Shown piece by piece: positions 3,241 through 43,590 of a DNA stretch of 64,000 nt. Below the pieces are notes generated by a model. That model was not told where the DNA came from. It did not search any database and saw nothing but the letters and a program-made list of their open reading frames with translations. Source of the stretch: Antedon mediterranea. Its lineage: Eukaryota > Echinodermata > Crinoidea > Comatulida > Antedonidae. The translations under genes and the position numbers were made by a program. Positions within the stretch are counted from its first letter, which is position 1, and each line of letters starts with the position of its first letter. The stretch spans positions 9,220,288 through 9,284,287 of the forward strand of contig NC_092676.1 of NCBI RefSeq assembly GCF_964355755.1, read 5' to 3'.

Positions 3241-4560
3241 TTAGGATATGCTGTAAAAACTTGTAGTAGGCCTACACATGTTATCAGGGATGGGTTCAAC
3301 AGACTGTGAAAGTTCAGTAATAGTAGGTTCAACAATAGGTTCAATAATGGGTTCAATATTAGGTTCAATAATAGGAGTATCATTAGGTAAATCAATAATG
3401 GGACTTGGAAGAATCTCGGTATCTTCAAAACAAAGTTGAGAAACAGACACAGGCTCAGGGCAAGGTTGGAGGGATCATGGTGCGGAATCTAAACAAGATT
3501 GCGGGATGAGTAGAGGTTCAGAACAAGATTGCGGGATGAGTAGAGGTTCAGCACAAGCCACAGGAGAATCAAGAATAGTGACAGAAAGTTTAGGACTGGG
3601 TACAGATGATACTGGGGAGTCAACTACAGCTGGCTCTACATCTGTTGCAACTTCACTTGCTTCTTTAACATCAAACTCACAAAAACTGACGTGACTACAG
3701 ACTCGATGCTCTCGTCAAAGAACGCATTTACAGGACTACTATCAGTGGAAACATTTCCAGCACTAATATGAGATATATAGCAGGAGTAGTTTCATGGACA
3801 AATTCTTGGGCATCTACATTCAGCGGAAAATGGGGTGAAATGGACGAAACTGTAAACGTTTCTACAGGGAGTGTGACTGAGAAGTCTAATGAGACTAGCA
3901 TTGTAACCTCCTTCTCACTGGATTCACCACTGTCATCATGCTCGCTCTCAGTGACATGAACTTTTGCCTTAGACCGCGTGTAATAGGGCGGTTTATCTTC
4001 TGTTTAGTAGGTTTTGCTGGTGGATCTTCTTTGTTTAAATAGTCGATGGGCAGAAGTATGTTTCGATGTAGTGTTCGTAGGCCTACTCGACCACTATTTG
4101 ATTCTGGCTTCACACGGAGTCCCACTGGTCAGCGAGTTTGTGTTTACCCTGTAGTCCCAGATTTCGAATCAACACTCGATCACCTGGATGAAGATCATTG
4201 ACTCGTACTTTCAAATCATGTCGAACTTTGTTCTTGCGTGCTGACTTCGCTGCCTCTTCAGATGCCATTTGATAGGCAAGCGATAGTTGGTCTCTCAGAT
4301 CGTTGACGTACTTTATGGGGTCAGCGTTACCAAATCCATCTGGGCTAATTCCAAACCGTAAGTCAACAGGAAGTCTCGCCTCTCGTCCGAACATCAGAAA
4401 ATAAGGTGAGAAACCTGTACTGTCATGCTTCATACAGTTGTAAGCATGAACCAAAGCACTGATATAGCGACTCCAGCTTTCCTTCTTTTCGCCTTCGAGT
4501 GTATACCTAACATATTCATTAAAGTTCGATTAAAGCGTTCAGGTTGTGCTAGATTAAACT
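3241..4560 (-). pseudogene. Ty3/gypsy retrotransposon integrase C-terminal remnant (copy 1)
   Basis: On the minus strand, 4560-4110 reads as the C-terminal half of a gypsy integrase: a PERFNRTL-type motif, then HDSTGFSPYFLMFGREARLP, then a GDRVLIRNLG module. From 4125 down follow a VKPESNSG segment and RTLHRNILLP, the usual end of a Ty3/gypsy Pol. Frame changes near 4450-4500 and a 2-bp insertion near 3975 (absent from copy 2) break the frame. Beyond the integrase the frame runs into an acidic tail with 12-bp repeats encoding IIEP or NIEP. No reverse transcriptase, protease, gag or paired LTRs were found, so this is an old fragment carried inside the duplicated segment. Confidence 0.8.
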
Positions 4561-15700: not shown

Positions 15701-15824
15701 AAGGTTAGATGGTGGTTGTTGTACGGTATCACCAAGCACATCAAACGTGTTACTTGAGATTGTGCTAATGCCATTTTATTTACAGTATAGAATAGGTTTA
15801 GATACAAACTTTTTGGGTATTGCT

Positions 15825-16350
15825 TTTTTTGTTGTTTGCGCTGTGAAATCAATAATTTTCCCAAAAATTGAAGTTTTTCACCCAAAAAAAAGGAAACTTA
15901 AAGGAATTTCAAATTTGTTTTCCCATAAATTGTCTCCTTATATAGTTCTAGTTGTTATCTAATCAATATTAATTGATTTAAAGGAGGTTTGCGCAGCTTT
16001 TTTTTTAGGTTTGCGCTGTGAAATCAGTAATTTTCCCAAAAATTGAAGTTTTTTACCCAAAAAAAGGCAAACTTAAAGGAATTTTAAATTTTTTCCCCAT
16101 AAATTGTCTCCCTATATAGGTCTAGTTGTGTTTTAATCAATATTAATTGATTTAAAGGAGGTTTGCGCAGCTTTTTTTGGAGGTTTGCGCTGTGAAATCA
16201 GTAATTTTCCCAAAAATTGAAGTTTTTCACCCAAAAAAAGTCAAACTTAAAGGAATTTTATATTTTTTCCTCATAAATTGTCTCCCTATACAGGTCTAGT
16301 TGTGTTTTAATCAATATTAATTTTTTTGTTGTTTGCGCAGTGTTTGCGCA
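15825..16350. repeat. ~175-bp tandem repeat, three units plus a partial fourth
   Basis: CTGTGAAATC recurs at 15841, 16016 and 16190 (periods 175 and 174), followed each time by AATTTTCCCAAAAATTGAAG. A partial fourth unit with TTTGCGCAG occurs near 16330. No coding potential. Confidence 0.85.
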
Positions 16351-18049: not shown

Positions 18050-18064
18050 GCTTTTTTCAAGAGC
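18050..18064. other. Left target-site duplication of the foldback element
   Basis: GCTTTTTTCAAGAGC here is repeated exactly at 33987-34001. It occurs once, uninterrupted, at 17153-17167 in the neighbouring tandem copy. Because the element ends in GCGC-like bases, the duplication can be read as 11, 13 or 15 bp depending on where the ends are placed. Confidence 0.85.
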
Positions 18065-18375
18065 GCCGTGAAGTTGGTTACTTATTCCTTATTCGACATT
18101 CGTCAATGGAAGTTGGTTCCTTATTCGACGTTCGACATTCGCTAGGCTAGGCCAAAATTTCGAAAATGATAATTTCCCAGCGGTAAATATGCCGTGCGCC
18201 ACCAACCAATCTCCTGCTGGTACTTATTCCCTATTCGACATTCATTCGTGAAGTTGGTTCCTTATTCGACGTTCGCTAGGCCGCGGCCGACCGGCTGGCC
18301 CAAATTCGTACCAAAGTAGACCTAGTGTAGATGTACCTATTTTATCACAGATTTACATTTTTTAGTTCCGATATT
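18065..18375 (+). repeat. Left terminal inverted repeat, unique outer domain
   Basis: Near-perfect reverse complement of 33676-33986. It contains four imperfect copies of a TTATTCGACRTTCG motif and a GC-rich GGCCGCGGCCGACCGGC segment. Homology between the ends extends into the first satellite unit, where both ends share the unusual CTGGAATTCCAG palindrome and a GATC-containing variant hairpin. Confidence 0.93.
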
Positions 18376-21300
18376 ACGACCATACCAACGCCTCGGGCCG
18401 GGTTCACAATAGTATAGATTGACGTAGTATGGTCCTGGAATTCCAGAAATGTGCCACTTGCCCCGACCCAGATCGGGCAAGTACGTGTTTTAACGCAATT
18501 TCAAATGCGTATTTTTAGCAATAATTTACTAAGAATTAATAGCACCACTTTTAAAGTGGCCATATGACCACACCCCGACGCCTCGGGCCGGGTACACAAT
18601 AATATAGATTGACGTAGTATGGTCCTGGCATTCCAGAAATGTGCCACTCGCCCCGGCCCAGTGCGGGCAAGTACGGGTTTTAAAGCAATTTAAAATGCGT
18701 ATTTTTAGTGTTATTTTACTAAGTATTAATAGCACCACTTTTAAAGTGGCAATATGACCACACCCCGACGTCTCGGGCCGGCCGCCGGGTACACAATAGT
18801 ATAGATTGACGTAGTATGGTCCTGGCTTTCCAGAAATGTGCCACTTGCCCCGGCCCAGTGCGGGCAAGTACGGATTTTAAAGCAATTTAAAATGCGTATT
18901 TTTGGCATTAATTTATTAAACACCACTTTTAAAGTGGCCATATGACCACACACCGACGCATCGGGCCGGGTACACAATAGTATAGATTGACGTAGTATGG
19001 TCCTGGCATTCCAGAAATGTGCCACCTGCCCCGGCCCAGTGCGTGCAAGTACGTGTTTTAAAGCAATTTCAAATGCGTATTTTTAGCAAAAATTTACTAA
19101 GAATTAATAGCACCACTTTTAAAGTGGCCATATGACCACACCCCGACGCCTCGGGTCGAGTTCACAATAGTATAGATTGATGTACAATGGTCCTGGCATT
19201 CCATAAATGTACCACTTGCCCCGGCCCAGTGCGGGCAAGTACGTGTTTAAAAGCAATTTCAAATTCGTATTTTTAGCATTAATTTACTAAGAATTAATAG
19301 CACCACTTTTAAAGTGGCCATATGACCACACCCCAACGCCTCGGGCCGGGAACACAATAGTATAGATTGACGTAGAATGGTCCTGGCATTCCAGAAATGT
19401 GCCACTTGCCCCGGCCCAGTGCGGGCAAGTACGGATTTTAAAGCAATTTAAAATGCGTATTTTTAGCATTAATTTAGTAAACACCACTTTTAAAGTGGCC
19501 ATATGACCACACCCCGACGCCTCGGGCCGGGTACACAATAGTATAGATTGACTTAGTATGGTCCTGGATTTCCAGAAATGTGCCACTTGCCCCGGCCCAG
19601 TGCGGGCAAGTACGTGTTTAAAAGCAATTTCAAATGCGTATTTTTAGCATTAATTTACTAAGAATTAATAGCACCACATTTAAAGTGGCCATATGACCAC
19701 ACCCCGACGCCTCGGGCCGGGAACACAATAGTATAGATTAACGTAGTATGGTCCTGGCATTCCAGAAATATGCCACTTGCCCCGGCCCAGTGCGGGCAAG
19801 TACGGATTTTAAAGCAATTTAAAATGCGTATTTTTAGCATTAATTTAGTAAACACCACTTTTAAAGTGGCCATATGACCACACCCCGACGCCTCGGGCCG
19901 GGTACACAATAGTATAGATTGACGTAGTATGGTCCTGGCTTTCCAGAAATGTGCCACTTGCCCCGGCCCAGTGCGGGAAAGTACGGATTTTAAAGCAATT
20001 TAAAATGCGTGTTTTTAGTGTTATTTTACTAAGTATTAATAGCACCACTTTTAAAGTGGCAATATGACCACACCCCGACGCCTCGGGCCGGATTCACAAT
20101 AGTATGGATTGACGTAGAATGGTCCGGACATTCCAGAAATGTGCCACTTGCCCCGGCCCAGTGCGGGCAAGTACGGGTTTTAAAGCAATTTAAAATGCGT
20201 ATTTTTAGTGTTATTTTACTAAGTATTAATAGCACCACTTTTAAAGTGGCAATATGACCGCACCCCGACGCCTCGGGCCGGGTACACAATAGTATAGATT
20301 GACGTAGTATGGTCCTGGCTTTCCAGAAATGTGCCACTTGCCCCGGCCCAGGGCGAGTACGGATTTTAAAGCAATTTAAAATGCGTATTTTTGGCATTAA
20401 TTTAGTAAACACCACTTTTAAAGTGGCCATATGACCACACCCCGACGCATCGGGCCGGGTACACAATAGTATAGATTGACGTAGTATGGTCCTGACATTC
20501 TAGAAATGTGCCACCTGCCCCGGCGGCCCAGTGCGTGCAAGTACGTGTTTTAAAGCAATTTCAAATGCGTATTTTTAGCAAAAATTTACTAAGAATTAAT
20601 AGCACCACTTTTAAAGTGGCCATATGACCAAACCCCGACGCCTCGGGTCGGGTTCACAATAGTATAGATTGATGTAGAATGGTCCTGGCATTCCATAAAT
20701 GTGCCACTTGCCCCGGCCCAGTGCGGGCAAGTAAGTGTTTAAAAGCAATTTCAAATGCGTATTTTTAGCATTAATTTACTAAGAATTAATAGCACCACAT
20801 TTAAAGTGGCCATATGACCACACCCCGACACCTCGGGCCGGGAACACAATAGTATAGATTGACGTAGTATGGTCCTGGCATTCCAGAAATATGCCACTTG
20901 CCCCGGCCCAGTGCGAGCAAGTACTGATTTTAAAGCAATTTAAAATGCGTATTTTTAGCATTAGTAAACACCACTTTTAAAGTGGCCATATGACCACACC
21001 CCGACGCCTCGGGCCGGGTACACAATAGTATAGATTGACGTATTATGGTCCTGGCTTTCCAGAAATGTGCCACTTGCCCCGGCCCAGTGCGGGCAAGTAC
21101 GTGTTTAAAAGCAATTTCAAATGCGTATTTTTAGCATTAATTTACTAAGAATTAATAGCACCACATTTAAAGTGGCCATATGACCACACCCCGACGCCTC
21201 GGGCCGGGAACACAATAGTATAGATTGACGTAGTATGGTCCTGGCATTCCAGAAATATGCCACTTGCCCCGGCCCAGTGCGGGCAAGTACGGATTTTAAA

Positions 21301-21640
21301 GCAATTTAAAATGCGTATTTTTAGCATTAATTTAGTAAACACCACTTTTAAAGTGGCCATATGACCACACCCCGATGCCTCGGGCCGGGTACACAATAGT
21401 ATAGATTGACGTAGTATGGTCCTGGCTTTCCAGAAATGTGCCACTTGCCCCGGCCTAGTGCGGGCAAGTACGGATTTTAAAGCAATTTAAAATGCGTATT
21501 TTTAGCATTAATTTAGTAAACACCACTTTTAAAGTGGCCATATGACCACACCCCGATGCCTCGGGCCGGGTACACAATAGTATAGATTGACGTAGTATGG
21601 TCCTGGCTTTCCAGAAATGTGCCACTTGCCCCGGCCCAGA
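18376..21640 (-). repeat. Left arm of satellite array (~17 units)
   Basis: Units of ~181-190 bp in the orientation opposite to 21641-33671. Each contains the 15-bp palindrome CCACTTTTAAAGTGG, a hairpin (CTTGCCC and GGGCAAG around an 11-bp loop) and a CG-rich block around CGACGCCTCGGGCCGG. The stacked minus-strand frames of 60-145 codons are repeats of one translated satellite unit, not genes. Confidence 0.95.
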
Positions 21641-24600
21641 TATTTCTGGAATGTCAGGACCATTCTACGTCAATCCATACTATTGTGAACCCGGCCCGAG
21701 GCGTCGGGGTGTGGTCATATTGCCACTTTAAAAGTAGTGCTGTTAATACTTAGTAAAAAAACACTAAATATACGCATTTTAAATTGCTTTAAAACACGTA
21801 CTTGTCCGCACTGGGCCGGGGCAAGTGGCACATTTCTGGAATGCCAGGACAATACTACGTCAATATATACTATTGTGTACCCGGCCCGAGGCGTCGGGGT
21901 GCGGTCATATGGCCACTTTAAAAGTGGTGTTTACTAAATTAATGCTAAAAATACGCATTTGAAATTGCTTTAAAACACGTACTTGCCCGCACTGGGCCGG
22001 GGCAAGTGGCATATTTCTGGAATGCCAGGACCATTCTACGTCAATCTATACTATCGTGAACCCGGCCCGAGGCGTCGGGGTGTGGTCATATGGCCACTTT
22101 AAAAGTGGTGCTATTAATTCTTAGTAATTATTGGTAAAAATACTCATTTGAAATTGCTTTAAAACACGTACTTGCCCGCACTGGGCCGTGGCAGGTGGCA
22201 CATTTATGGCATGTCAGGACCATTCTACATCAATCTATACTATTGTGAACCCGGCCCGAGGCGTCGGGGTGTGGTCATATTGCCATTTTAAAAGTGGTGC
22301 TATTAATACTTAGTAAAATAACACTAAAAACACGCATTTTAAATTGCTTTAAAATCCGTACTTGCCCGCACTGGGCCGGGGCAAGTGGCACATTTCTGGA
22401 ATGCCAGGACCATACTACGTCAATCTATACTATCGTGAACCCGACTCGAGGCGTCGGGGTGTGGTCATATGGCCACTTTAAAAGTGGTGTTTACTAAATT
22501 AATGCTAAAAATACGCATTTTACCCGCACTGGGCCGGGGCAAGTGGCACATTTCTGGAATGCCAGGACCATACTACGTCAATCTATACTATTGTGTACCC
22601 GGCCCGAGGCGTCGGAGTGTGGTCATATGGCCACTTTAAATGTGGTGCTTTTAATTATTCTTAGTAAATTAATGCTAAAAATACGCATTTGAAATTGCTT
22701 TTAAACACGTACTTTCCCGCAATGGGCTGGGGCAAGTGGCACATTTATGGAATGCCAGGACCATTCTACATCAATCTATACTATTGTGAACCCGACCCGA
22801 GGCGTCGGGGTGTGGTCATGGCCACTTTAAAACTGGTGTTTACTATATTAATGCTAAAAATACGCATTTTAAATTGCTTTAAAATCCGTACTTGCCCGCA
22901 CTGGGCCGTTGCAAGTGGCACATTTCTGGAAAACCAGGACCATACTACGTCAATCTATAATATTGTGTATCCGGCCTGAGGCGTCGGGGTGTGGTCATAT
23001 GGCCACTTTAAAAGTGGTGCTATTATAATACTTAGTTAAAATAACACTAAAAATACACATTTTAAATTGCTTTAAAACACGTACTTGCCCGCACTGGGCC
23101 GGGACAAGTGGCACATTTCTGGAATGCCAGGACCATACTACGTCAATCTATATTATCGTGAACCCGACCCGAAGCGTCGGTGTGTGGTCATATTATGGCC
23201 ACTTTAAAAGTGGTGTTTACTAAATTAATGCTAAAAATACGCATTTGAAATTGCTTTTAAACACGTACTTGCCCGCACTGGGCCGGGGCAAGTGGCACAT
23301 TTCTGGAAAGCCAGGACCATACTGCGTCAATCTATACTATTGTGTACCCGGCCCGAGGCGTCGGGGTGTGGTCATATGGCCACTTTAAAAGTGGTGCTAT
23401 TAATACTTAGTAAAATAACACTAAAAATACGCATTTTAAATTGCTTTAAAACACGTACTTGCCCCCACTGGGCCGGGGCAAGTGGCACATTTCTAGTAAG
23501 TCTGGACCTTTCTACGTCAATCCATACTATTGTGAACCCGGCCCGAGGCGTCGGGGTGTGGTCATATTGCCACTTTAAAAGTGGTGCTATTAATACTTAG
23601 TAAAATAACACTAAAAATACGCATTTTAAATTGCTTTAAAATCCGTACTTGCCCGCACTGGGCCGGGGCAAGTGGCATATTTCGGGAATGCCAGGACCAT
23701 ACTACGTTAATCCATACTTGTGTTCCCGGCCCGAGGCGTCGGGGTGTGGTCATATGGCCACTTTAAATGTGGTGCTATTAATTCTTAGTAAATTAATGCT
23801 AAAAATACGCATTTGAAATTGATTTTAAACACGTACTTGCCCGCACTGGGCCGGGGCAAGTGGCACATTTCTGGAAAGCCAGGACCATACTAAGTCAATC
23901 TATACTATTGTGTACCCGGCCCGAGGCGTCGGGGTGTGGTCATATGGCCACTTTAAAAGTGGTGTTTACTAAATTAATGCTAAAAATACGCATTTTAAAT
24001 TGCTTTAAAATCCGTACTTGCCCGCACTGGGCCGGGGCAAGTGGCACATTTCTGGAATGCCAGGACCATTCTCCGTCAATCTATACTATTGTGTTCCCGG
24101 CCCGAGGCGTTGGGGTGTGGTCATATGGCCACTTTATAAGTGGTGCTATTAATTCTTAGTAAATAATGCTAAAAATACGCATTTGAAATTGCTTTTAAAC
24201 ACGTACTTGCCCGCACTGGGCCGGGGCAAGTGGCACATTTCTGGAAAGTCAGGACCATACTACGTCAATCTATACTATTGTGTACCCGGCCCGAGGCGTC
24301 GGGGTGTGGTCATATGGCCACTTTAAAAGTGGTGTTTACTAAATTAATGCCAAAAATACGCATTTTAAATTGCTTTAAAATCCGTACTCGCCCGCACTGG
24401 GCCGGGGCAAGTGGCACATTTCTAGAAAGTCTGGACCTTTCTACGTCAATCTATATTATTGTGTACCCGGCCCGAGGCGTCGGGGTGTGGTCATATTGCC
24501 ACTTTAAAAGTGGTGCTATTAATACTTAGTAAAATAACACTAAAAATACGCATTTTAAATTGCTTTAAAATCCGTACTTGCCCGCACTGGGCCGGGGCAA

Positions 24601-27600
24601 GTGGCATATTTCTGGAATGCCAGGACCATACTACGTTAATCTATACTATTGTGTTCCCGGCCCGAGGCGTCGGGGTGTGGTCATATGGCCACTTTAAATG
24701 TGGTGCTATTAATTCTTAGTAAATTAATGCTAAAAATACGCATTTGAAATTGATTTTAAACACGTACTTGCCCGCACTGGGCCGGGGCAAGTGGCACATT
24801 TCTGGAAAGCCAGGACCATACTAAGTCAATCTATACTATTGTGTACCCGGCCCGAGGCGTCGGGGTGTGGTCATATGGCCACTTTAAAAGTGGTGTTTAC
24901 TAAATTAATGCTAAAAATACGCATTTTAAATTGCTTTAAAATCCGTACTTGCCCGCACTGGGCCGGGGCAAGTGGCACATTTCTGGAATGCCAGGACCAT
25001 TCTACGTCAATCTATACTATTGTGTTCCCGGCCCGAGGCGTTGGGGTGTGGTCATATGGCCACTTTAAAAGTGGTGCTATTAATTCTTAGTAAATTAATG
25101 CTAAAAATACGCATTTGAAATTGCTTTTAAACACGTACTTGCCCGCACTGGGCCGGGGCAAGTGGCACATTTCTGGAAAGTCAGGACCACACTACGTCAA
25201 TCTATACTATTGTGTACCCGGCCCGAGGCGTCGGGGTGTGGTCATATGGCCACTTTAAAAGTGGTGTTTACTAAATTAATGCCAAAAATACGCATTTTAA
25301 ATTGCTTTAAAATCCGTACTCGCCCGCACTGGGCCGGGGCAAGTGGCACATTTCTAGAAAGTCTGGACCTTTCTACGTCAATCTATATTATTGTGTACCC
25401 GGCCCGAGGCGTCGGGGTGTGGTCATATTGCCACTTTAAAAGTGGTGCTATTAATACTTAGTAAAATAACACTAAAAATACGCATTTTAAATTGCTTTAA
25501 AATCCGTACTTGCCCGCACTGGGCCGGGGCAAGTGGCATATTTCTGGAATGCCAGGACCATACTACGTTAATCTATACTATTGTGTTCCCGGCCCGAGGC
25601 GTCGGGGTGTGGTCATATGGCCACTTTAAATGTGGTGCTATTAATTCTTAGTAAATTAATGCTAAAAATACGCATTTGAAATTGATTTTAAACACGTACT
25701 TGCCCGCACTGGGCCGGGGCAAGTGGCACATTTCTGGAAAGCCAGGACCATACTAAGTCAATCTATACTATTGTGTACCCGGCCCGAGGCGTCGGGGTGT
25801 GGTCATATGGCCACTTTAAAAGTGGTGTTTACTAAATTAATGCTAAAAATACGCATTTTAAATTGCTTTAAAATCCGTACTTGCCCGCACTGGGCCGGGG
25901 CAAGTGGCACATTTCTGGAATGCCAGGACAATTCTACGTCAATCTATACTATTGTGTTCCCGGCCCGAGGCGTTGGGGTGTGGTCATATGGCCACTTTAA
26001 AAGTGGTGCTATTAATTCTTAGTAAATTAATGCTAAAAATACGCATTTGAAATTGCTTTTAAACACGTACTTGCCCGCACTGGGCCGGGGCAAGTGGCAC
26101 ATTTCTGGAAAGTCAGGACCACACTACGTCAATCTATACTATTGTGTACCCGGCCCGAGGCGTCGGGGTGTGGTCATATGGCCACTTTAAAAGTGGTGTT
26201 TACTAAATTAATGCCAAAAATACGCATTTTAAATTGCTTTAAAATCCGTACTCGCCCGCACTGGGCCGGGGCAAGTAGCACATTTCTGGAAAGTCAGGAC
26301 CATACTACGTCAATCTATACTATTGTGTACCCGGCCCGAGGCGTCGGGGTGTGGTCATATTGCCACTTTAAAAGTGGTGCTATTAATACTTAGTAAAATA
26401 ACACTAAAAATACGCATTTTAAATTGCTTTAAAATCCGTACTTGCCCGCACTGGTGGGCCGAGGCAAGTGGCATATTTCTGGAATGCCAGGACCATACTA
26501 CGTTAATCTATACTATTGTGTACCCGGCCCGAGGCGTCGGGGTGTGGTCATATGGCCACTTTAAATGTGGTGCTATTAATTCTTAGTAAATTAATGCTAA
26601 AAATACGCATTTGAAATTGATTTTAAACACGTACTTGCCCGCACTGGGCCGGGGCAAGTGGCACATTTCTGGAAAGCCAGGACCATACTAAGTCAATCTA
26701 TACTATTGTGTACCCGGCCCGAGGCGTCGGGGTGTGGTCATATGGCCACTTTAAAAGTGGTGTTTACTAAATTAATGCTAAAAATACGCATTTTAAATTG
26801 CTTTAAAATCCGTACTTGCCCGCACTGGGCCGGGGCAAGTGGCACATTTCTGGAATGCCAGGACCATTCTACGTCAATCTATACTATTGTGTTCCCGGCC
26901 CAAGGCGTTGGGGTGTGGTCATATGGCCACTTTAAAAGTGGTGCTATTAATTCTTAGTAAATTAATGCTAAAAATACGCATTTGAATTTGCTTTTAAACA
27001 CGTACTTGCCCGCACTGGGCCGGGGCAAGTGGCACATTTCTGGAAAGTCAGGACCATACTACGTCAATCTATACTATTGTGTACCCGGCCCGAGGCGTCG
27101 CGGTGTGGTCATATGGCCACTTTAAAAGTGGTGTTTACTAAATTAATGCCAAAAATACGCATTTTAAATTGCTTTAAAATCCGTACTCGCCCGCACTGGG
27201 CCGGGGCAAGGGGCACATTTCTGGAAAGCCAGGACCATACTACGTCAATCTATACTATTGTGTACCCGGCCCGAGGCGTCGGGGTGCGGTCATATGGCCA
27301 CTTTAAAAGTGATGCTATTAATACTTAGTAAAATAACACTAAAAATACGCATTTTAAAATGCTTTAAAACTCGTACTTGCCCGCACTGGGCCGGGGAAAG
27401 TGGCACATTTCTGGAATGCCAGGACCATACTACGTCAATCTATATTATTGTGTACCCGGCCCGAGGCGTCGGGGTGTGGTCATATGGCCACTTTAAAAGT
27501 GGTGCTATTAATACTTAGTAAAATAACACTAAAAATACGCATTTTAAATTGCTTTAAAACACGTACTTGCCCGCACTGGGCCGGGGCAAGTGGCACATTT

Positions 27601-30600
27601 CTAGAAAGTCTGGACCTTTCTACGTCAATCCATACTATTGTGAACCCGGCCCGAGGCGTCGGGGTGTGGTAATATTGCCACTTTAAAAGTGGTGCTATTA
27701 ATACTTAGTAAAATAACACTAAAAATACGCATTTAAAATTGCTTTAAAATCCGTACTTGCCCGCACTGGGCCGGGGCAAGTGGCATATTTCTGGAATGCC
27801 AGGACCATACTACGTTAATCTATACTATTGTGTTCCCGGCCCGAGGCGTCGGGGTGTGGTCATATGGCCACTTTAAATGTGGTGCTATTAATTCTTAGTA
27901 AATTAATGCTAAAAATACGCATTTGAAATTGCTTTAAAACACGTACTTGCCCGCACTGGGCCGGGACAAGTGGCACATTTCTGGAATGCCAGGACCATAC
28001 TACGTCAATCTATATTATCGTGAACCCGACCCGAAGCGTCGGTGTGTGGTCATATTATGGCCACTTTAAAAGTGGTGTTTACTAAATTAATGCTAAAAAT
28101 ACGCATTTGAAATTGCTTTTAAACACGTACTTGCCCGCACTGGGCCGGGGCAAGTGGTACGTTTATGGAATGCCCGGACCATTCTACATCAATCTATACT
28201 ATTGTGAACCCGACCCGAGGCGTCGGGGTGTGGTCATATGGCCACTTTAAAAGTGGTGTTTACTAAATTAATGCTAAAAATACGCATTTTAAATTGCTTT
28301 AAAATCCGTTCTTGCCCGCACTGGGCCGGGGCAAGTGGCACATTTCTGAAAAGCCAGGACCATACTGCGTCAATCTATACTATTGTGTACCCGGCCCGAG
28401 GCGTCGGGGTGTGGTCATATGGCCACTTTAAAAGTGGTGCTATTAATACTTAGTAAAATAACACTAAAAATACGCATTTTAAATTGCTTTAAAACACGTA
28501 CTTGCCTGCACTGGGCCGGGGCAAGTGGCACATTTCTAGAAAGTCTGGACCTTTCTACGTCAATCCATACTATTGTGAACCCGGCCCGAGGCGTCGGGGT
28601 GTGGTCATATTGCCACTTTAAAAGTGGTGCTATTAATACTTAGTAAAATAACACTAAAAATACGCATTTTAAATTGCTTTAAAATCCGTACTTGCCCGCA
28701 CTGGGCCGGGGCAAGTGGCATATTTCGGGAATGCCAGGACCATACTACGTTAATCCATACTTGTGTTCCCGGCCCGAGGCGTCGGGGTGTGGTCATATGG
28801 CCACTTTAAATGTGGTGCTATTAATTCTTAGTAAATTAATGCTAAAAATACGCATTTGAAATTGATTTTAAACACGTACTTGCCCGCACTGGGCCGGGGC
28901 AAGTGGCACATTTCTGGAAAGCCAGGACCATACTAAGTCAATCTATACTATTGTGTACCCGGCCCGAGGCGTCGGGGTGTGGTCATATGGCCACTTTAAA
29001 AGTGGTGTTTACTAAATTAATGCTAAAAATACGCATTTTAAATTGCTTTAAAATCCGTACTTGCCCGCACTGGGCCGGGGCAAGTGGCACATTTCTGGAA
29101 AGCCAGGACCATACTGCGTCAATCTATACTATTGTGTACCCGGCCCAAGGCGTCGGGGTGTGGTCATATGGACACTTTAAAAGTGGTGCTATTAATACTT
29201 AGTAAAATAACACTAAAAATACGCATTTTAAATTGCTTTAAAACACGTACTTGCCCGCACTGGGCCGGGGCAAGTGGCACATTTCTGGAAAGCCAGGACC
29301 ATACTACGTCAATCTATACTATTGTGTACCCGGCCCGAGGCGTCGGGGTGCGGTCATATTGCCACTTTAAAAGTGGTGCTATTAATACTTAGTAAAATAA
29401 CACTAAAAATACGCATTTTAAATTGCTTTAAAACCCGTACTTGCCCGCACTGGGCCGGGGAAAGTGGCACATTTCTGGAATGCCAGGACCATACTACGTC
29501 AATCTATATTTTTGTGTACCCGGCCCGAGGCGTCGGGGTGTGGTCATATGGCCACTTTAAAAGTGGTGCTATTAATACTTAGTAAAATAACACTAAAAAT
29601 ACGCATTTTAAATTGCTTTAAAACACGTACTTGCCCGCACTGGGCCGGGGCAAGTGGCACATTTCTGGAATGTCCGGACCATTCTACGTCAATCCATACT
29701 ATTGTGAATCCGGCCCGAGGCGTCGGGGTGTGGTCATATTGCCACTTTAAAAGTGGTGCTATTAATACTTAGTAAAATAACACTAAAAATACGCATTTAA
29801 AATTGCTTTAAAATCCGTACTTGCCCGCACTGGGCCGGGGCAAGTGGCATATTTCTGGAATGCCAGGACCATACTACGTTAATCTATACTATTGTGTTCT
29901 CGGCCCGAGGCGTCGGGGTGTGGTCATATGGCCACTTTAAATGTGGTGCTATTAATTCTTAGTAAATTAATGCTAAAAATACGCATTTGAAATTGCTTTA
30001 AAACACGTACTTGCCCGCACTGGGCCGGGACAAGTGGCACATTTCTGGAATGCCAGGACCATACTACGTCAATCTATATTATCGTGAACCCGACCCGAAG
30101 CGTCGGTGTGTGGTCATATTATGGCCACTTTAAAAGTGGTGTTTACTAAATTAATGCTAAAAATACGCATTTGAAATTGCTTTTAAACACGTACTTGCCC
30201 GCACTGGGCCGGGGCAAGTGGCACGTTTATGGAATGCCCGGACCATTCTACATCAATCTATACTATTGTGAACCCGACCCGAGGCGTCGGGGTGTGGTCA
30301 TATGGCCACTTTAAAAGTGGTGTTTACTAAATTAATGCTAAAAATACGCATTTTAAATTGCTTTAAAATCCGTTCTTGCCCGCACTGGGCCGGGGCAAGT
30401 GGCACATTTCTGAAAAGCCAGGACCATACTGCGTCAATCTATACTATTGTGTACCCGGCCCGAGGCGTCGGGGTGTGGTCATATGGCCACTTTAAAAGTG
30501 GTGCTATTAATACTTAGTAAAATAACACTAAAAATACGCATTTTAAATTGCTTTAAAACACGTACTTGCCTGCACTGGGCCTGGGCAAGTGGCACATTTC

Positions 30601-33600
30601 TAGAAAGTCTGGACCTTTCTACGTCAATCCATACTATTGTGAACCCGGCCCGAGGCGTCGGGGTGTGGTCATATTGCCACTTTAAAAGTGGTGCTATTAA
30701 TACTTAGTAAAATAACACTAAAAATACGCATTTGAAATTGCTTTTAAACACGTACTTGCCCGCACTGGGCCGGGGCAAGTGGCACATTTCTGAAAAGTCA
30801 GGAACATACTACGTCAATCTATACTATTGTGTACCCGGCCCGAGGCGTCGGGGTGTGGTCATATGGCCACTTTAAAAGTGGTGTTTACTAAATTAATGCC
30901 AAAAATACGCCTTTTAAATTGCTTTAAAACACGTACTTGCCCGCACTGGGCCGGGGCAAGTGGCACATTTCTGGAATGCCAGGACCATACTACGGCAATC
31001 TATATTATCGTGAACCCGACCCGAAGCGTCGGTGTGTGGTCATATTATGGCCACTTTAAAAGTGGTGTTTACTAAATTAATGCTAAAAATACGCATTTGA
31101 AATTGCTTTTAAACACGTACTTGCCCGCACTGGGCCGGGGCAAGTGGCACATTTATGGAAAGCCAGGACCATACTGCGTCAATCTATACTATTGTGTACC
31201 CGGCCCAAGGCGTCGGGGTGTGGTCATATGGCCACTTTAAAAGTGGTGCTATTAATACTTAGTAAAATAACACTAAAAATACGCATTTTAAATTGCTTTA
31301 AAACACGTACTTGCCCGCGCTGGGCCGGGGCAAGTGGCACATTTCTGGAAAGCCAGGACCATACTACGTCAATCCATACTATTGTGAACCCGGCCCGAGG
31401 CGTCGGGGTGTGGTCATATTGCCACTTTAAAAGTGGTGCTATTAATACTTAGTAAAATAACACTAAAAATACGCATTTTAAATTGCTTTAAAATCCGTAC
31501 TTGCCCGCACTGGGCCGGGGCAAGTGGCACATTTCTGGAATGCCAGGACCATTCTACGTCAATCTATACTATTGTGTTCCCGGCCCGAGGCGTTGGGGTG
31601 TGGTCATATGGCCACTTTAAAAGTGGTGCTATTAATTCTTAGTAAATTAATGCTAAAAATACGCATTTGAAATTGCTTTTAAACACGTACTTGCCCGCAC
31701 TGGGCCGGGGCAAGTGGCACATTTCTGAAAAGTCAGGAACATACTACGTCAATCTATACTATTGTGTACCCGGCCCGAGGCGTCGGGGTGTGGTCATATG
31801 GCCACTTTAAAAGTGGTGTTTACTAAATTAATGCCAAAAATACACATTTTAAATTGCTTTAAAATCCGTACTCGCCCGCACTGGGCCGGGGCAAGTGGCA
31901 CATTTCTGGAAAGCCAGGACCATACTACGTCAATCTATACTATTGTGTACCCGGCCCGAGGCGTCGGGGTGCGGTCATATTGCCACTTTAAAAGTGGTGC
32001 TATTAATACTTAGTAAAATAACACTAAAAATACGCATTTTAAATTGCTTTAAAACCCGTACTTGCCCGCACTGGGCCGGGGAAAGTGGCACATTTCTGGA
32101 ATGCCAGGACCATACTACGTCAATCTATATTTTTGTGTACCCGGCCCGAGGCGTCGGGGTGTGGTCATATGGCCACTTTAAAAGTGGTGCTATTAATACT
32201 TAGTAAAATAACACTAAAAATACGCATTTTAAATTGCTTTAAAACACGTACTTGCCCGCACTGGGCCGGGGCAAGTGGCACATTTCTGGAATGTCCGGAC
32301 CATTCTACGTCAATCCATACTATTGTGAATCCGGCCCGAGGCGTCGGGGTGTGGTCATATTGCCACTTTAAAAGTGGTGCTATTAATACTTAGTAAAATA
32401 ACACTAAAAACACGCATTTTAAATTGCTTTAAAATCCGTATTTGCCCGCACTGGGCCGGGGCAAGTGGCACATTTCTGGAAAGCCAGGACCATACTACGT
32501 CAATCTATACTATTGTGTACCCGGCCCGAGGCGTCGGGGTGTGGTCATATGGCCACTTTAAAAGTGGTGCTATTAATTCTTAGTAAATTATTGCTAAAAA
32601 TACGCATTTGAAATTGCTTTAAAACACGTACTTGCCCGCACTGGGCCGGGGCAAGTGGCACATTTGTGGAATGCCAGGACCATTCTACGTCAATCTATAC
32701 TATTGTGTTCCCGGCCCGAGGCGTTGGGGTGTGGTCATATGGCCACTTTAAAAGTGGTGCTATTAATTCTTAGTAAATTAATGCTAAAAATACGCATTTT
32801 AAATTGCTTTTAAACACGTACTTGCCCGCACTGGGCCGGGGCAAGTGGCACATTTCTGGAAAGTCAGGACCATACTACGTCAATCTATACTATTGTGTAC
32901 CCGGCCCGAGGCGTCGGGGTGTGGTCATATGGCCACTTTAAAAGTGGTGTTTACTAAATTAATGCCAAAAATACGCATTTTAAATTGCTTTAAAATCCGT
33001 ACTCGCCCGCACTGGGCCGGGGCAAGTGGCACATTTCTGGAAAGCCAGGACCATACTACGTCAATCTATACTATTGTGTACCCGGCGGCCGGCCCGAGAC
33101 GTCGGGGTGTGGTCATATTGCCACTTTAAAAGTGGTGCTATTAATACTTAGTAAAATAACACTAAAAATACGCATTTTAAATTGCTTTAAAACCCGTACT
33201 TGCCCGCACTGGGCCGGGGCAATTGGCACATTTCTGGAATGCCAGGACCATACTACGTCAATCTATATTATTGTGTACCCGGCCCGAGGCGTCGGGGTGT
33301 GGTCATATGGCCACTTTAAAAGTGGTGCTATTAATTCTTAGTAAATTATTGCTAAAAATATGCATTTGAAATTGCTTTAAAACACGTACTTGCCCGCACT
33401 GGGCCGGGGCAGGTGGCACATTTCTGGAATGCCAGGACCATACTACGTCAATCTATACTATTGTGTACCCGACGCGAGGCGTCGGTGTGTGGTCATATGG
33501 CCACTTTAAAAGTGGTGTTTACTAAATTAATTCTAAAAATACGCATTTTAAATTGCTTTAAAATCCGTACTTGCCCGATCTGGGTCGGGGCAAGTGGCAC

Positions 33601-33675
33601 ATTTCTGGAATTCCAGGACCATACTACGTCAATCTATACTATTGTGAACCCGGCCCGAGGCGTTGGTATGGTCGT
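21641..33675 (+). repeat. Right arm of satellite array (~64 units, higher-order structure)
   Basis: Same unit in reverse orientation, starting with no spacer at 21641. Three spacer variants occur: A ('gctattaatacttag', ~190 bp), B ('gctattaattcttag', ~190 bp) and C ('gtttactaaatta', ~181 bp). They combine into larger repeats with offsets of 932 bp (24230, 25162, 26094), 2064 bp (28238 and 30302), 2621 bp (29274 and 31895) and 5043 bp (23562 and 28605). The plus-strand 60-102-codon frames here are satellite translations. Confidence 0.95.
24230..27028 (+). repeat. 932-bp higher-order repeat (five-unit cassette, three copies)
   Basis: Cassette order is C-A-B-C-B. Copies start at 24230, 25162 and 26094; the third is 935 bp because of a TGG insertion near 26455. 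Cassette copies are far more alike than the neighbouring units within a cassette, which marks recent amplification of the cassette as a block. Confidence 0.85.
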
Positions 33676-33986
33676 AATATCGGAACTAAAAAACGTAAAT
33701 CTGTGATAAAATAGGTACATCTACACTAGGTCTACTTTGGTACGAATTTGGGCCAGCCGGTCGGCCGCGGCCTAGCGAACGTCGAATAAGGAACCAACTT
33801 CACGAATGAATGTCGAATAGGGAATAAGTAACAGCAGGAGATTGGTTGGTGGCGCACGGCATATTTACCGCTGGGAAATTATCATTTTCGAAATTTTGGC
33901 CTAGCCTAGCGAATGTCGAACGTCGAATAAGGAACCAACTTCCATTGACGAATGTCGAATAAGGAATAAGTAACCAACTTCACGGC
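33676..33986 (-). repeat. Right terminal inverted repeat, unique outer domain
   Basis: Reverse complement of 18065-18375 with very few mismatches (for example GTACTTATT against AATAAGTAAC near 33825). Ends CTTCACGGC at the right target duplication. Confidence 0.93.
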
Positions 33987-34001
33987 GCTTTTTTCAAGAG
34001 C
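33987..34001. other. Right target-site duplication of the foldback element
   Basis: Exact copy of 18050-18064. The split second tandem copy then resumes and matches 17168-17518 down to 34441, apart from the small insert at 34004-34077. Confidence 0.85.
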
Positions 34002-37231: not shown

Positions 37232-40200
37232 ATCATAGTTAGCTAATTCTCGTTGTGAGCGGACGTGTTCATATCGAGCTCCGCTAGGCTACCCATTGTG
37301 TGGATACTAGGCCAGTCAACGTAGGCATACTGTAGTCTACATGATGTGTTCGACCGGGCTACGTGTGCCGCTACTTATTTTGAACTTATTTCTTGGCCTC
37401 TATTTTTCAAGTTTTAATATGGGATTTTCATCCAGAAATCAATGGCTAAGGCCAGTCGATGGATACGCTGAGCCGGTAAGCTGCAACATTCCTAGCATCG
37501 TTGTATGTAAATGTTGGAATTTGTATCTATGCGGTCAAAGCAGTACGACTACGAGTGTTGTTGCATTCCAACGTAGCAGCAGACCGTCAAGGAAGATCTA
37601 CAGCGCACCACGTTTGCTCTATTCTAATTCCACTGTTACATTCTGTATTCTTTTAAGTGGCGATGTTGAATCGAATCCAGGTCCAGGTAATACTCAGACA
37701 TCTTCAGTTAAGGTATACTATCAAAACGTACGTAGCCTGAAGAATAAAATGGACGTATACAACTCAGATCTGAATGCACACCTAATTCAGAGCAATTTGG
37801 ATATTGTCGCACTTACGGAAACATGGTTAAACTGCAACGTGCTCGATTCTGAACTTTCCGTTTCTAATTACACTTTATTTCGACGCGATAGAGATACTGA
37901 TAAACGCGGTGGTGGTATCCTGATGCTAGTGAATAACAAATTTACCTGTAACCGAGTGGAACGCCTAGAAAGTGATTCAACGGAGTTCATGTGGATAGAG
38001 ATTCAACTAAAGCGGCGTAGTAGCCTACTTGTTGGATTATTCTATAGACCACCAAACGCTACACCCGATGTCCTCCGTCGTTTTACTTCGTCTGTGGAAA
38101 TCGCTATGCTCTACTACAAAAACAGTGAATTCCTCATTCTTGGAGATTTCAACCTGCCCGAAATTAATTGGAGTAGTAACCCTTATTCTGCTCCAGCTCA
38201 GTCCATGGGAGAACACTTACTTGATGTATTGCTTTCTAGCTGTGGCCTATTTCAATGCAATACGTACTGTACAAGAATGGATAAAATGCTTGATCTTGTT
38301 ATTTGTAGTAAAAACATTTCCGACAAAGTCTATACTGCTAACGATATTTTTTTATCTGACCACTCATCTTTGAGAATTGATTTCCGTTTAAATTTTGATG
38401 TTAAATGTAGTAATGATAATTTGAATCGTAAAAGTATAATTTACAATTTTAAAGCACTTGATGTCAATAATCTATGTAATACTCTTAACTGTGTTCCATG
38501 GAGTGTCTTAATTGATTTTGAAGGTGATTTAAATGAAGCTTTGGATATGTTTTATAATTTGTTAAATGCTGCCGTCAATGACACAGTGCCTAAAATTAGA
38601 AAGCGCAGAAAGCTTCCTCCGTGGTTTGACAATGAGTTGAGAAGTGCGCTTCAACTCAAAGAAAAGTATTATAGATATCTGAAAAAAAATAATAATCGGT
38701 TAGCCCAAAGTAATTTCAAATTTGCTCGCGCGTCTTTTAAAAAAATGTGCAATAAAAAGTACAAAGATTACTTGGACTCTTTGGCTAAGCAAATTGTCAC
38801 TAACAGTAAAAGATTCTGGAGCTGGATGAAAACTAAATACAAGTCAAATAATCTTCCTTCTGTCATGAGTCACGATAACATTTCATTCCAGTCTAATTAT
38901 GATAAAGCTACCACATTTAATTCTTATTTTCATTCTTTTTTCAGTGAGCCTTCTCCGGACGTTCCCCGGGACTATCCAGGTCTTCCTGACTATGCGGTGG
39001 ATAACTTAAGTTCTCTGTCTGTGAATCAGCATTCTGTGGAAAAGGCACTTAGTAACATTGATATCAATAAAGCTACTGGCATTGATCAGATTAGTAACGT
39101 TGTCTTAAAGGGTGCCTCCTCCTCACTCTCTTATCCGCTTTGCAAATTGTTTCAGCTATCTATTAATTCTGGGGTTTTTCCTTCATCTTGGAAACACGCT
39201 AATATTGTCCCAATTCACAAGAGTGGTCCCAAAAAACTAATCTGTAACTATCGTCCTATTTCGTTATTGCCTACTATGTCTAAGATTTTTGAGCGCATTG
39301 TGCATGATGGTTTGTCATCACATGTTGCTAATGCTTTAAGTCCTAGGCAGCATGGTTTTGTCTCTGGGAGATCATGTCAAACCAACCTCGCACTGCTTCT
39401 TGCTACATCATACGATGCAATTAACAGCAAGAAGCAGTGCGATGTGATTTACACTGATTTCTCTAAGGCTTTTGATTCCGTTTCCCATGATTTGCTTATT
39501 TTTAAACTTTCAAAATTTGGTTTATCCGGTTCACTGTTAAGTTGGTTTAAAAGCTATTTAACTAATATACAACAGCGTGTTGTCATTGGGGGAGAGACAT
39601 CTGATTGGCTCCCTGTGTTATCGGGCGTTCCGCAGGGCTCGATCCTGGGCCCGCTTTTGTTTAATTTATTTATCAACGATCTTCCTTTAAAATTTAATCA
39701 TTCCGAGTCTCTTTTATTTGCTGACGATCTGAAATTGTTTAAAGTGATTACCACTCCACAGGATGCTTTTTCACTTCAGGAGGATCTGGATGGTCTCGTG
39801 GAATGGACGGAGAAGTGGGGGATAAAACTTAATGCTAATAAATGCAAATATTTATCTATAACACTTAAAAAAAGGCCTGTGCTCTTCAATTATAATCTGA
39901 GTGGACATGATCTTGAGATGGTTTATGTATGGAAAGATTTAGGTATTTTTATTGATAGTAAATTAAATTTTTGTTCACATATTAATCATGTGTTGTCAAA
40001 AGCTAATAGAATGATGGGCTTAATATGGAGAAATTGTAGGTTTATGAACGACGGCAGGGCACTTTTATCTTTATACAAATCTATTATACGTCCTCACCTT
40101 GAATATTGTTCTGCAATTTTCAATTCAATTTCTCCATGTCAGGCCCGTCGAATCGACACTGTTCAACGGAAGTTTGTTCGATTCCTGTCTTATAACTGTG

Positions 40201-40700
40201 TTAATTTTGCCTTTTCCATTGATTCTGTCAGCAATCGTCGAACGATATCTGATATGGTTTTTTTATATAATATTTTAAATTCTAAATATGACTGTTCATT
40301 AATTTCACTATTTAGTTTAAATGTTCCTGGTCGTACACGAAATAGACATTTATTGCATATTCCTTTTAGCCGTGTCGACTGTACTAAGAGGGGACTTTTT
40401 CATAGACTACCTTATACATTTAATAATCTAAATAGCAATCATATCGATATTTTTAATGATAGACTTGGTTATTTTAAGAGGACGATGATGTGTTCACTTC
40501 TTGAACAGTCTGCATAACCTGTTTTAATTGAAATTTTTTATGGCATGCCAATCTATGTTTTATATATATATTTATATATTTTATCTGTATTTTATTGTTA
40601 ACCGTTTTTGATGTTGTATTGTTTTATGTTTCAAACCTGTTAGTGGCGGTATTTATCGCTGTTGGTTTTAATTGAATAAAATAAAATAAAATAAAATAAA
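37232..40700 (+). mobile_element. Apparently full-length APE-type LINE (CR1/L2-like) inserted in copy 2
   Basis: A ~110-bp leader, one long ORF, and a 3' UTR with a GGCGGTA...TCGC hairpin followed by (ATAAA)n. The empty site is 1571-1597 in copy 1. No target-site duplication is visible; up to ~8 bp of target (CAATAAAC) is missing or merged with the ATAAA tail. The insertion is younger than the segmental duplication. Confidence 0.92.
37341..40517 (+). CDS. LINE polyprotein: N-terminal leader, 2A peptide, APE endonuclease, reverse transcriptase
   Basis: 1058 residues with no stop. The first ~30 residues are hydrophobic and signal-like. At 108-115 stands DVESNPGP, the canonical 2A ribosome-skipping motif (Gly114/Pro115, codon 115 at 37683), preceded by the usual aliphatic run ILLSG. 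The APE-type endonuclease starts about residue 124 with YYQNVRSLKNK, then LTETWLN, LILGDFNLPEINW and SDHSSLRIDF. The reverse transcriptase shows GVPQGSILGPLLFNLFIND and LLFADDLKLF, with catalytic FADD at 793-796. The C-terminal tail matches CR1/L2-type elements. 2A motifs near the N-terminus of such ORFs are known from sea-urchin and other invertebrate LINEs. Translation would be expected to release a ~114-residue leader from the enzyme. All catalytic motifs are present, so the copy may be recently active. Confidence 0.95.
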   Translation: MMCSTGLRVPLLILNLFLGLYFSSFNMGFSSRNQWLRPVDGYAEPVSCNIPSIVVCKCWNLYLCGQSSTTTSVVAFQRSSRPSRKIYSAPRLLYSNSTVTFCILLSGDVESNPGPGNTQTSSVKVYYQNVRSLKNKMDVYNSDLNAHLIQSNLDIVALTETWLNCNVLDSELSVSNYTLFRRDRDTDKRGGGILMLVNNKFTCNRVERLESDSTEFMWIEIQLKRRSSLLVGLFYRPPNATPDVLRRFTSSVEIAMLYYKNSEFLILGDFNLPEINWSSNPYSAPAQSMGEHLLDVLLSSCGLFQCNTYCTRMDKMLDLVICSKNISDKVYTANDIFLSDHSSLRIDFRLNFDVKCSNDNLNRKSIIYNFKALDVNNLCNTLNCVPWSVLIDFEGDLNEALDMFYNLLNAAVNDTVPKIRKRRKLPPWFDNELRSALQLKEKYYRYLKKNNNRLAQSNFKFARASFKKMCNKKYKDYLDSLAKQIVTNSKRFWSWMKTKYKSNNLPSVMSHDNISFQSNYDKATTFNSYFHSFFSEPSPDVPRDYPGLPDYAVDNLSSLSVNQHSVEKALSNIDINKATGIDQISNVVLKGASSSLSYPLCKLFQLSINSGVFPSSWKHANIVPIHKSGPKKLICNYRPISLLPTMSKIFERIVHDGLSSHVANALSPRQHGFVSGRSCQTNLALLLATSYDAINSKKQCDVIYTDFSKAFDSVSHDLLIFKLSKFGLSGSLLSWFKSYLTNIQQRVVIGGETSDWLPVLSGVPQGSILGPLLFNLFINDLPLKFNHSESLLFADDLKLFKVITTPQDAFSLQEDLDGLVEWTEKWGIKLNANKCKYLSITLKKRPVLFNYNLSGHDLEMVYVWKDLGIFIDSKLNFCSHINHVLSKANRMMGLIWRNCRFMNDGRALLSLYKSIIRPHLEYCSAIFNSISPCQARRIDTVQRKFVRFLSYNCVNFAFSIDSVSNRRTISDMVFLYNILNSKYDCSLISLFSLNVPGRTRNRHLLHIPFSRVDCTKRGLFHRLPYTFNNLNSNHIDIFNDRLGYFKRTMMCSLLEQSA

Positions 40701-42264: not shown

Positions 42265-43590
42265 TTAGGATATGCTGTAAAAACTTGTAGTAGGCCTACA
42301 CATGTTATCAGGGATGGGTTCAACAGACTGTGAAAGTTCAGTAATAGTAGGTTCAACAATAGGTTCAATAATAGGTTCAATATTAGGTTCAATAATAGGT
42401 TCAATAATAGGAGTATCATTAGGTAAATCAATAATGGGACTTGGAAGAATCTCGGTATCTTCAAAACAAAGTTGAGAAACAGACACAGGCTCAGGGCAAG
42501 GTTGGAGGGATCATGGTGCGGAATCTAAACAAGATTGCGGGATGAGTAGAGGTTCAGAACAAGATTGCGGGATGAGTAGAGGTTCAGCACAAGCCACAGG
42601 AGAATCAAGGATAGTGACAGAAAGTTTAGGACTGGGTACAGATGATACTGGGGAGTCAACTACAGCTGGCTCTACATCTGTTGCAACTTCACTTGCTTCT
42701 TTAACATCACACTCACAAAAACTGGCGTGACTACAGACTCGATGCTCTCGTCAAAGGACGCATTTACAGGACTACTATCAGTGGAAACATTTCCAGCACT
42801 AATATGAGATATATAGCAGGAGTAGTTTCATGGACAAATTCTTGGGCATCTACATTCAGCGGAAAATGGGGTGAAATGGAAGAAACTGTAAACGTTTCTA
42901 CAGGGAGTGTGACTGAGAAGTCTAATGGGACTAGCATAGTAACCTCCTTCTCACTGGATTCACCACTGTCATCATGCTCGTTCTCAGTGACATGAACTTT
43001 TGCCTTAGACCGCGTAATAGGGCGGTTTATCTTCTGTTTAGTAGGTTTTGCTGGTGGATCTTCTTTGTTTAAATAGTCGATGGGCAGAAGTATGTTTCGA
43101 TGTAGTGTTCGTAGGCCTACTCGACCACTATTTGATTCTGGCTTCACACGGAGTCCCACTGGTCAGCGAGTTTGTGTTTACCCTGTAGTCCCAGATTTCG
43201 AATCAACACTCGATCACCTGGATGAAGATCATTGACTCGTACTTTCAAATCATGTCGAACTTTGTTCTTGCGTGCTGACTTCGCTGCCTCTTCAGATGCC
43301 ATTTGATAGGCAAGCGATAGTTGGTCTCTCAGATCGTTGACGTACTTTATTGGGTCAGCGTTACCAAATCCATCTGGGCTAATTCCAAACCGTAAGTCAA
43401 CAGGAAGTCTCGCCTCTCGTCCGAACATCAGAAAATAAGGTGAGAAACCTGTACTGTCATGCTTCATACAGTTGTAAGCATGAACCAAAGCACTGATATA
43501 GCGACTCCAGCTTTCCTTCTTTTCGCCTTCGAGTGTATACCTAACATATTCATTAAAGTTCGATTAAAGCGTTCAGGTTGTGCTAGATTA
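42265..43590 (-). pseudogene. Ty3/gypsy integrase C-terminal remnant (copy 2)
   Basis: Same fragment as 3241-4560. The HDSTGFSPYFLMFGREARLP and GDRVLIRNLG parts are at 43488-43144. The C-terminal part stays open for 131 codons (43159-42764) because the 2-bp insertion seen in copy 1 is absent. The tail has one extra 12-bp IIEP unit. Upstream frames are broken as in copy 1. Confidence 0.8.

Follow-up and report, generated by a model that had tools for sequence, protein, structure and literature searches.

Can a satellite array form the body of a transposon, and does such a transposon then release satellites into its genome? The question was raised by a stretch of 64,000 nucleotides (contig 7:9220288-9284287, referred to below as the window) in the 354-Mb assembly of Antedon mediterranea. 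An initial annotation had recognized in it a foldback transposon that was built from units of satellite length and showed higher-order structure, and had suggested that the element could seed satellites across the genome. We showed that the element is a transposon with a family of copies, that its arrays moved along with it, and that in the assembled DNA they travel as transposon cargo and not as seeds of free satellites.

Structure of the element in the window

The foldback element occupied positions 18062-33989 (~16 kb) and consisted almost entirely of ~83 copies of a 186-bp repeat. The annotated ends, 18065 and 33986, were each 3 bp short. Comparison of the flanks revealed the target-site duplication that had been reported, 9 bp long (TTTTTCAAG), on the left at 18053-18061 and on the right at 33990-33998. 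The element started with AGCGCCGTGAAGTTGG and its other end was the reverse complement of this start, the inverted repeat opening with AGCGCCGTGAAG. Terminal inverted repeats had been annotated at ~310 bp; they were present but measured 326 bp, with a left outer domain at 18062-18387 (+ strand) and a right outer domain at 33664-33989 (- strand), which were 99.4% identical to each other. The left outer domain carried GAAGTTGGTT(A/C)CTTATTCG motifs, repeated close to the end.

The ~80 units in two opposed arms of the initial annotation were confirmed as 18 units in + and 65 in - by unit-by-unit counting, with a spacing of mostly 181/190 bp and a dimer of 371 bp. Tandem Repeats Finder gave 17.4 copies of 190 bp, or 8.7 of the 371-bp dimer, for the left arm (18388-21639, + strand), and 64.3 copies, again with a dimer of 371 bp, for the right arm (21642-33663, - strand). 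The arms met at 21640-21641 with no spacer. The sister copy at C8:13419835 retained at its centre an almost perfect palindrome whose loop measured 11 bp; the window copy had lost 10 bp of this palindrome centre. No open reading frame of 150 aa or more was found in 18062-33989, and the unit had no match to the outer domain of the element.

Other repeats and reading frames were observed elsewhere in the window. A 174-bp unit, present three times in tandem at 15822-16322, lay ~2 kb upstream of the element and had a consensus unlike that of the element's units. At 37341-40517 lay an apparently intact LINE-type open reading frame, whose 1058 aa included endonuclease and reverse-transcriptase domains. 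The reading frames at 60022-62393 contained 69-bp (23-aa) in-frame tandem repeats followed by DUF6570 and OTU domains, and are reminiscent of Helitron/Helentron-type proteins. The 30-bp tandem repeat AACAAGATTGCGGGATGAGTAGAGGTTCAG occurred at 3492-3557 and at 42528-42593, 39 kb apart, and the two sites are perhaps copies of one repeat element.

Copies of the element and their insertion sites

The family of the window element (the first family) had at least eight full copies in the genome, of 7.8-20.4 kb and 29-106 units. Besides the window element, the outer-domain search returned seven further full copies (C8:13419.8k, C8:10120.8k, C5:8649.4k, C1:25603k, C1:34353k, C1:2305k and C3:36281k), a rearranged copy at C6:27395k and degenerate relics. 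The outer domains of the eight were near-identical (at least 98.5% identity, except for one interrupted end of one copy), and it was the arms that differed, from 9 to 85 units. Seven copies held 18/65, 18/72, 38/68, 9/65, 85/9, 44/36 and 14/15 units per arm, while in the eighth 45 versus 31 units were detected together with a 2.66-kb interruption. The C6 copy had no right end and was rearranged around an ALKBH2-like gene; an ALKBH2-like exon, recognized from its translation, lay at C6:27400000-27401000 between two pieces of the element and is a sign of rearrangement around it. At C4:12969236, a degenerate outer domain of the same kind (77%) was followed by a third, unrelated tandem unit of ~171 bp.

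The copies were inserted independently. In the first family and a second one described below, 9-bp target duplications were exact in 14 of 16 copies and matched at 7 of 9 positions in the other two, while mispaired flanks used as control matched at no more than 6 of 9. The flanks of the copies were unrelated between loci, and the duplications were private where checked. Moreover, C5:8649k and C1:2305k had each inserted into a ~1-kb repeat whose ends are inverted (e.g. C1:306783-307762); this repeat occurred in about 450 other places, and its end motif had 913 genome occurrences. When joined, the flanks of these two copies aligned to the uninterrupted repeat with a single 9-mer, giving two paralogous empty sites; at C5:8649k the left 9-mer had mutated since insertion (AGACACAAA vs AGACCCAAC). 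Long inverted termini composed of an outer domain and tandem repeats, with little or no middle, and independent insertions with target-site duplication identify the window element as a transposon, and its description as a foldback with higher-order satellite structure stands.

A second family and smaller elements with the same ends

The terminal motif had 61 genome matches (up to 3 mismatches) versus 0 for the reversed control. The second family had its terminal ~30 bp (ACCGGCGTGAAGTTGG...) in common with the first, and its unit, ~192 bp long with a 388-bp dimer, was unlike the first-family unit. It comprised twelve full-length convergent pairs of ends, 12-24 kb apart, and a further, rearranged pair of 3.9 kb. 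All interior samples (600-1000 bp) were second-family satellite, with orientations fitting a single inversion point; C7:30277k, complete by matches, comprised a + arm of about 7 units and a - arm of about 57.

The units of both families had a 49-bp box in common, which scored 51 against at most 28 in 100 shuffles and may be a protein-binding site or may simply reflect common ancestry. Within families the box did not stand out, and it was not accepted as a proven site, its conservation in the first family being 0.958 versus 0.930 elsewhere in the unit and ranking 49th of 189 windows.

A third group of smaller elements (ATGTCTGTGAAGTTGGTTAC..., about 0.7-6 kb) carried the same 14 bp at the ends, and of five copies inspected, three had target duplications of 9 bp as read from the flanks. 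Two members, C8:22622788 and C7:3953337, had their own tandem repeat with a spacing of ~90-150 bp, which included GTTACTTATTCG, a terminal-repeat motif. Three copies of the terminal motif on C3 (20.77M, 20.90M and 22.93M) were set aside as part of a longer dispersed repeat, which is not a terminal-repeat family.

The arrays moved with the elements and were then changed by blocks

Although located at different target sites, the window copy and C8:13419.8k agreed at ~99.8% throughout the left arm and the initial ~7 kb of the right arm. Beyond that point they differed by gaps of 175, 560, 380, 181 and 365 bp, each corresponding to about 1-3 units. Central junctions were shared in three groups, namely the window copy with C8:13.42M, C1:25.6M with C1:34.35M (flipped), and C5:8.65M with C1:2.3M (flipped) and C6:27.4M, while those of the C3 copy and of C8:10.12M were unique. 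The central junction is thus a lineage mark. Since junctions and unit order were common to copies at unrelated loci, the elements carried their arrays along. Units of one copy had a mean identity (0.902-0.911) equal to that of units from different copies (0.904-0.911), therefore the unit variants predate dispersal. The nearest units within a copy were found at copy-specific lags of 5, 9, 11, 13 or 17 units. Later change of the arrays thus proceeded by multi-unit block duplication and deletion, which gave each copy its own higher-order repeats. Whole-element insertion with a 9-bp duplication, an inherited centre and block-wise array change together make up the observed history, although part of the interior similarity could stem from gene conversion between copies and not from movement of the complete array.

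The arrays might instead have grown separately at each site after a small foldback had inserted. Such growth would suit the arm lengths, which range from 9 to 85 units, and the block duplications, whose lags of 5, 11, 13 and 17 units are particular to single copies. Central junctions and long runs of unit order are, however, common to different loci, and units are no more alike within than between copies, which independent expansion would not produce; we regard this reading as improbable. A considerably fainter chance is given to the view that satellite arrays were copied by segmental duplication or ectopic recombination and not by transposition: the C6 copy, with its rearrangement around a gene and its absent right end, resembles such a product, yet the flanks are unrelated, and the private duplications and two empty sites already refute this view. 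An assembly artefact, with the array collapsed or inverted, is equally hard to credit, for although near-identical units are difficult to assemble and our basis was an assembly rather than reads, two independent families showed one architecture at 20 loci with distinct arm lengths, exact target duplications in the copies checked and lineage-shared junctions.

Search for a transposase

An autonomous partner was searched for using the terminal motif at three stringencies, MULE domains and interior samples. No transposase was found in the elements or within 8 kb of the listed termini (100 of 116 and 100 of 214), nor in the 800-bp mid-samples of the smaller elements C8:2632k, C8:5411k, C8:18705k, C7:3953k and C7:6632k. 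The genome contained 36 MULE-domain matches; among the termini listed, the shortest distance to one of them was 20 kb, from a degenerate relic. The genome did have MULE-domain genes whose frames stayed open for 586-707 aa, none of them linked to the ends of the elements. The candidate at C2:20075390, with a Myb/SANT-like exon downstream, was rejected because it led into a Gypsy-like element.

Target duplications of MULEs are 8-11 bp, usually 9 bp, and those of Rehavkus 9 bp (PMC6446971). The duplications here, of 9 bp, fall inside that range, and as in Rehavkus they accompany satellite-length units in both inverted termini. The PHD-finger transposase of Rehavkus was absent between the termini, as judged from the reading frames of 18062-33989 and from the second-family interior samples. 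The 9-bp duplication length and the composite termini suggest the Mutator-like group, so that the mobiliser is probably a Mutator-like (MULE/Rehavkus-type) transposase, an assignment made from duplication length and structure only.

We are confident, if short of certain, in the following reading: a non-autonomous foldback mobilised in trans by a MULE/Rehavkus-type transposase, whose array moves whole and whose arms then change by blocks. The trans-acting enzyme would recognise the outer domain, and the element inserts whole, together with its satellite array. After insertion multi-unit blocks are gained or lost, so that the arms lengthen or shorten, and the inverted centre is passed on through transposition within each lineage. 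The long arrays may owe their length to many binding sites, or may simply be a tolerated expansion.

Distribution of the satellite unit

The commonest 28-mer of the unit had 396 exact occurrences in the genome, and 390 of them lay in nine sequenced elements (assembled DNA). The search with this 28-mer found no free satellite arrays outside transposon copies in the assembly, and only degenerate relics were observed elsewhere; the proposed seeding of satellites across the genome thus received no support in this assembly.

Discussion

The closest known systems overall are Tetris of Drosophila virilis and Rehavkus-1_TC of Tribolium castaneum, and Tetris is the nearest known foldback. It is non-autonomous, with a flanking domain and ~220-bp tandem units in inverted arms, makes target duplications of 8-10 bp, has its ends in common with the DAIBAM element family, and its transposase was not found (PMC4079207). 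Intact Tetris elements have few units, inverted repeats of up to 1.7 kb and a middle domain, while its large arrays, which reach 66 units and resemble satellites, are believed to disrupt the element, and its authors proposed that foldbacks disrupted by large arrays release satellites (PMC4079207). Like Tetris, the present elements are foldbacks with inverted tandem arms and ends shared with another family, and no transposase was found for them. Unlike Tetris, intact elements here hold 29-106 units, have no middle domain and a unit that does not match their own outer domain, and no free arrays were found. Rehavkus-1_TC, of 9.5 kb, has a 164-bp unit in tandem in its inverted termini, as short arrays that mostly count five and eight monomers (PMC10218199), and Rehavkus elements as a group encode a PHD-finger transposase and make 9-bp duplications (PMC10218199, PMC6446971). 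The first family resembles it in the 9-bp duplications of the group and in a satellite-length unit in the inverted termini, and differs in lacking a gene and in arms that reach 85 units.

Foldback (FB) of Drosophila and Tm1 of root-knot nematodes have composite inverted termini with tandem repeats; Tm1 has 9-bp duplications and units of ~14 bp, and some members of the FB/Tm1 group have a Mutator/Phantom transposase (PMC3169594). The elements of the first family are far larger than either, and like Tm1 they have 9-bp duplications and tandem-repeat inverted termini. The tandem units of FB are also short, and Galileo of Drosophila belongs to the P superfamily and makes 7-8 bp duplications, unlike the 9 bp found here. 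Galileo is similar to our elements in its long, internally repetitive inverted termini, where added repeats hold extra transposase-binding sites (PMC3573991, PMC3688188).

A link between foldbacks and satellites is not new, being already known from Tetris (PMC4079207). The present elements stand apart from the known ones in being larger, array-only and mobile without loss of the array: the array accounts for almost the entire length of an intact element, and its unit was not found as free arrays. Tentatively, and with the odds rather against it, we suggest a satellite that has the transposon as its only habitat: the array would be a working part whose length is maintained by selection on transposition, and it would disperse as intact arrays of 8-24 kb without giving rise to free satellites. 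It might, for example, offer many putative binding sites for a transposase or host factor, the 49-bp box of both families among them.

Arrays of up to 106 units in intact copies that have moved mean that a long array need not end the mobility of an element. This genome offers a clean natural experiment in satellite expansion, higher-order repeats and dispersal by transposition: its young copies are near-identical, junctions are shared among them, the units differ between two sister families, and two empty sites are present.
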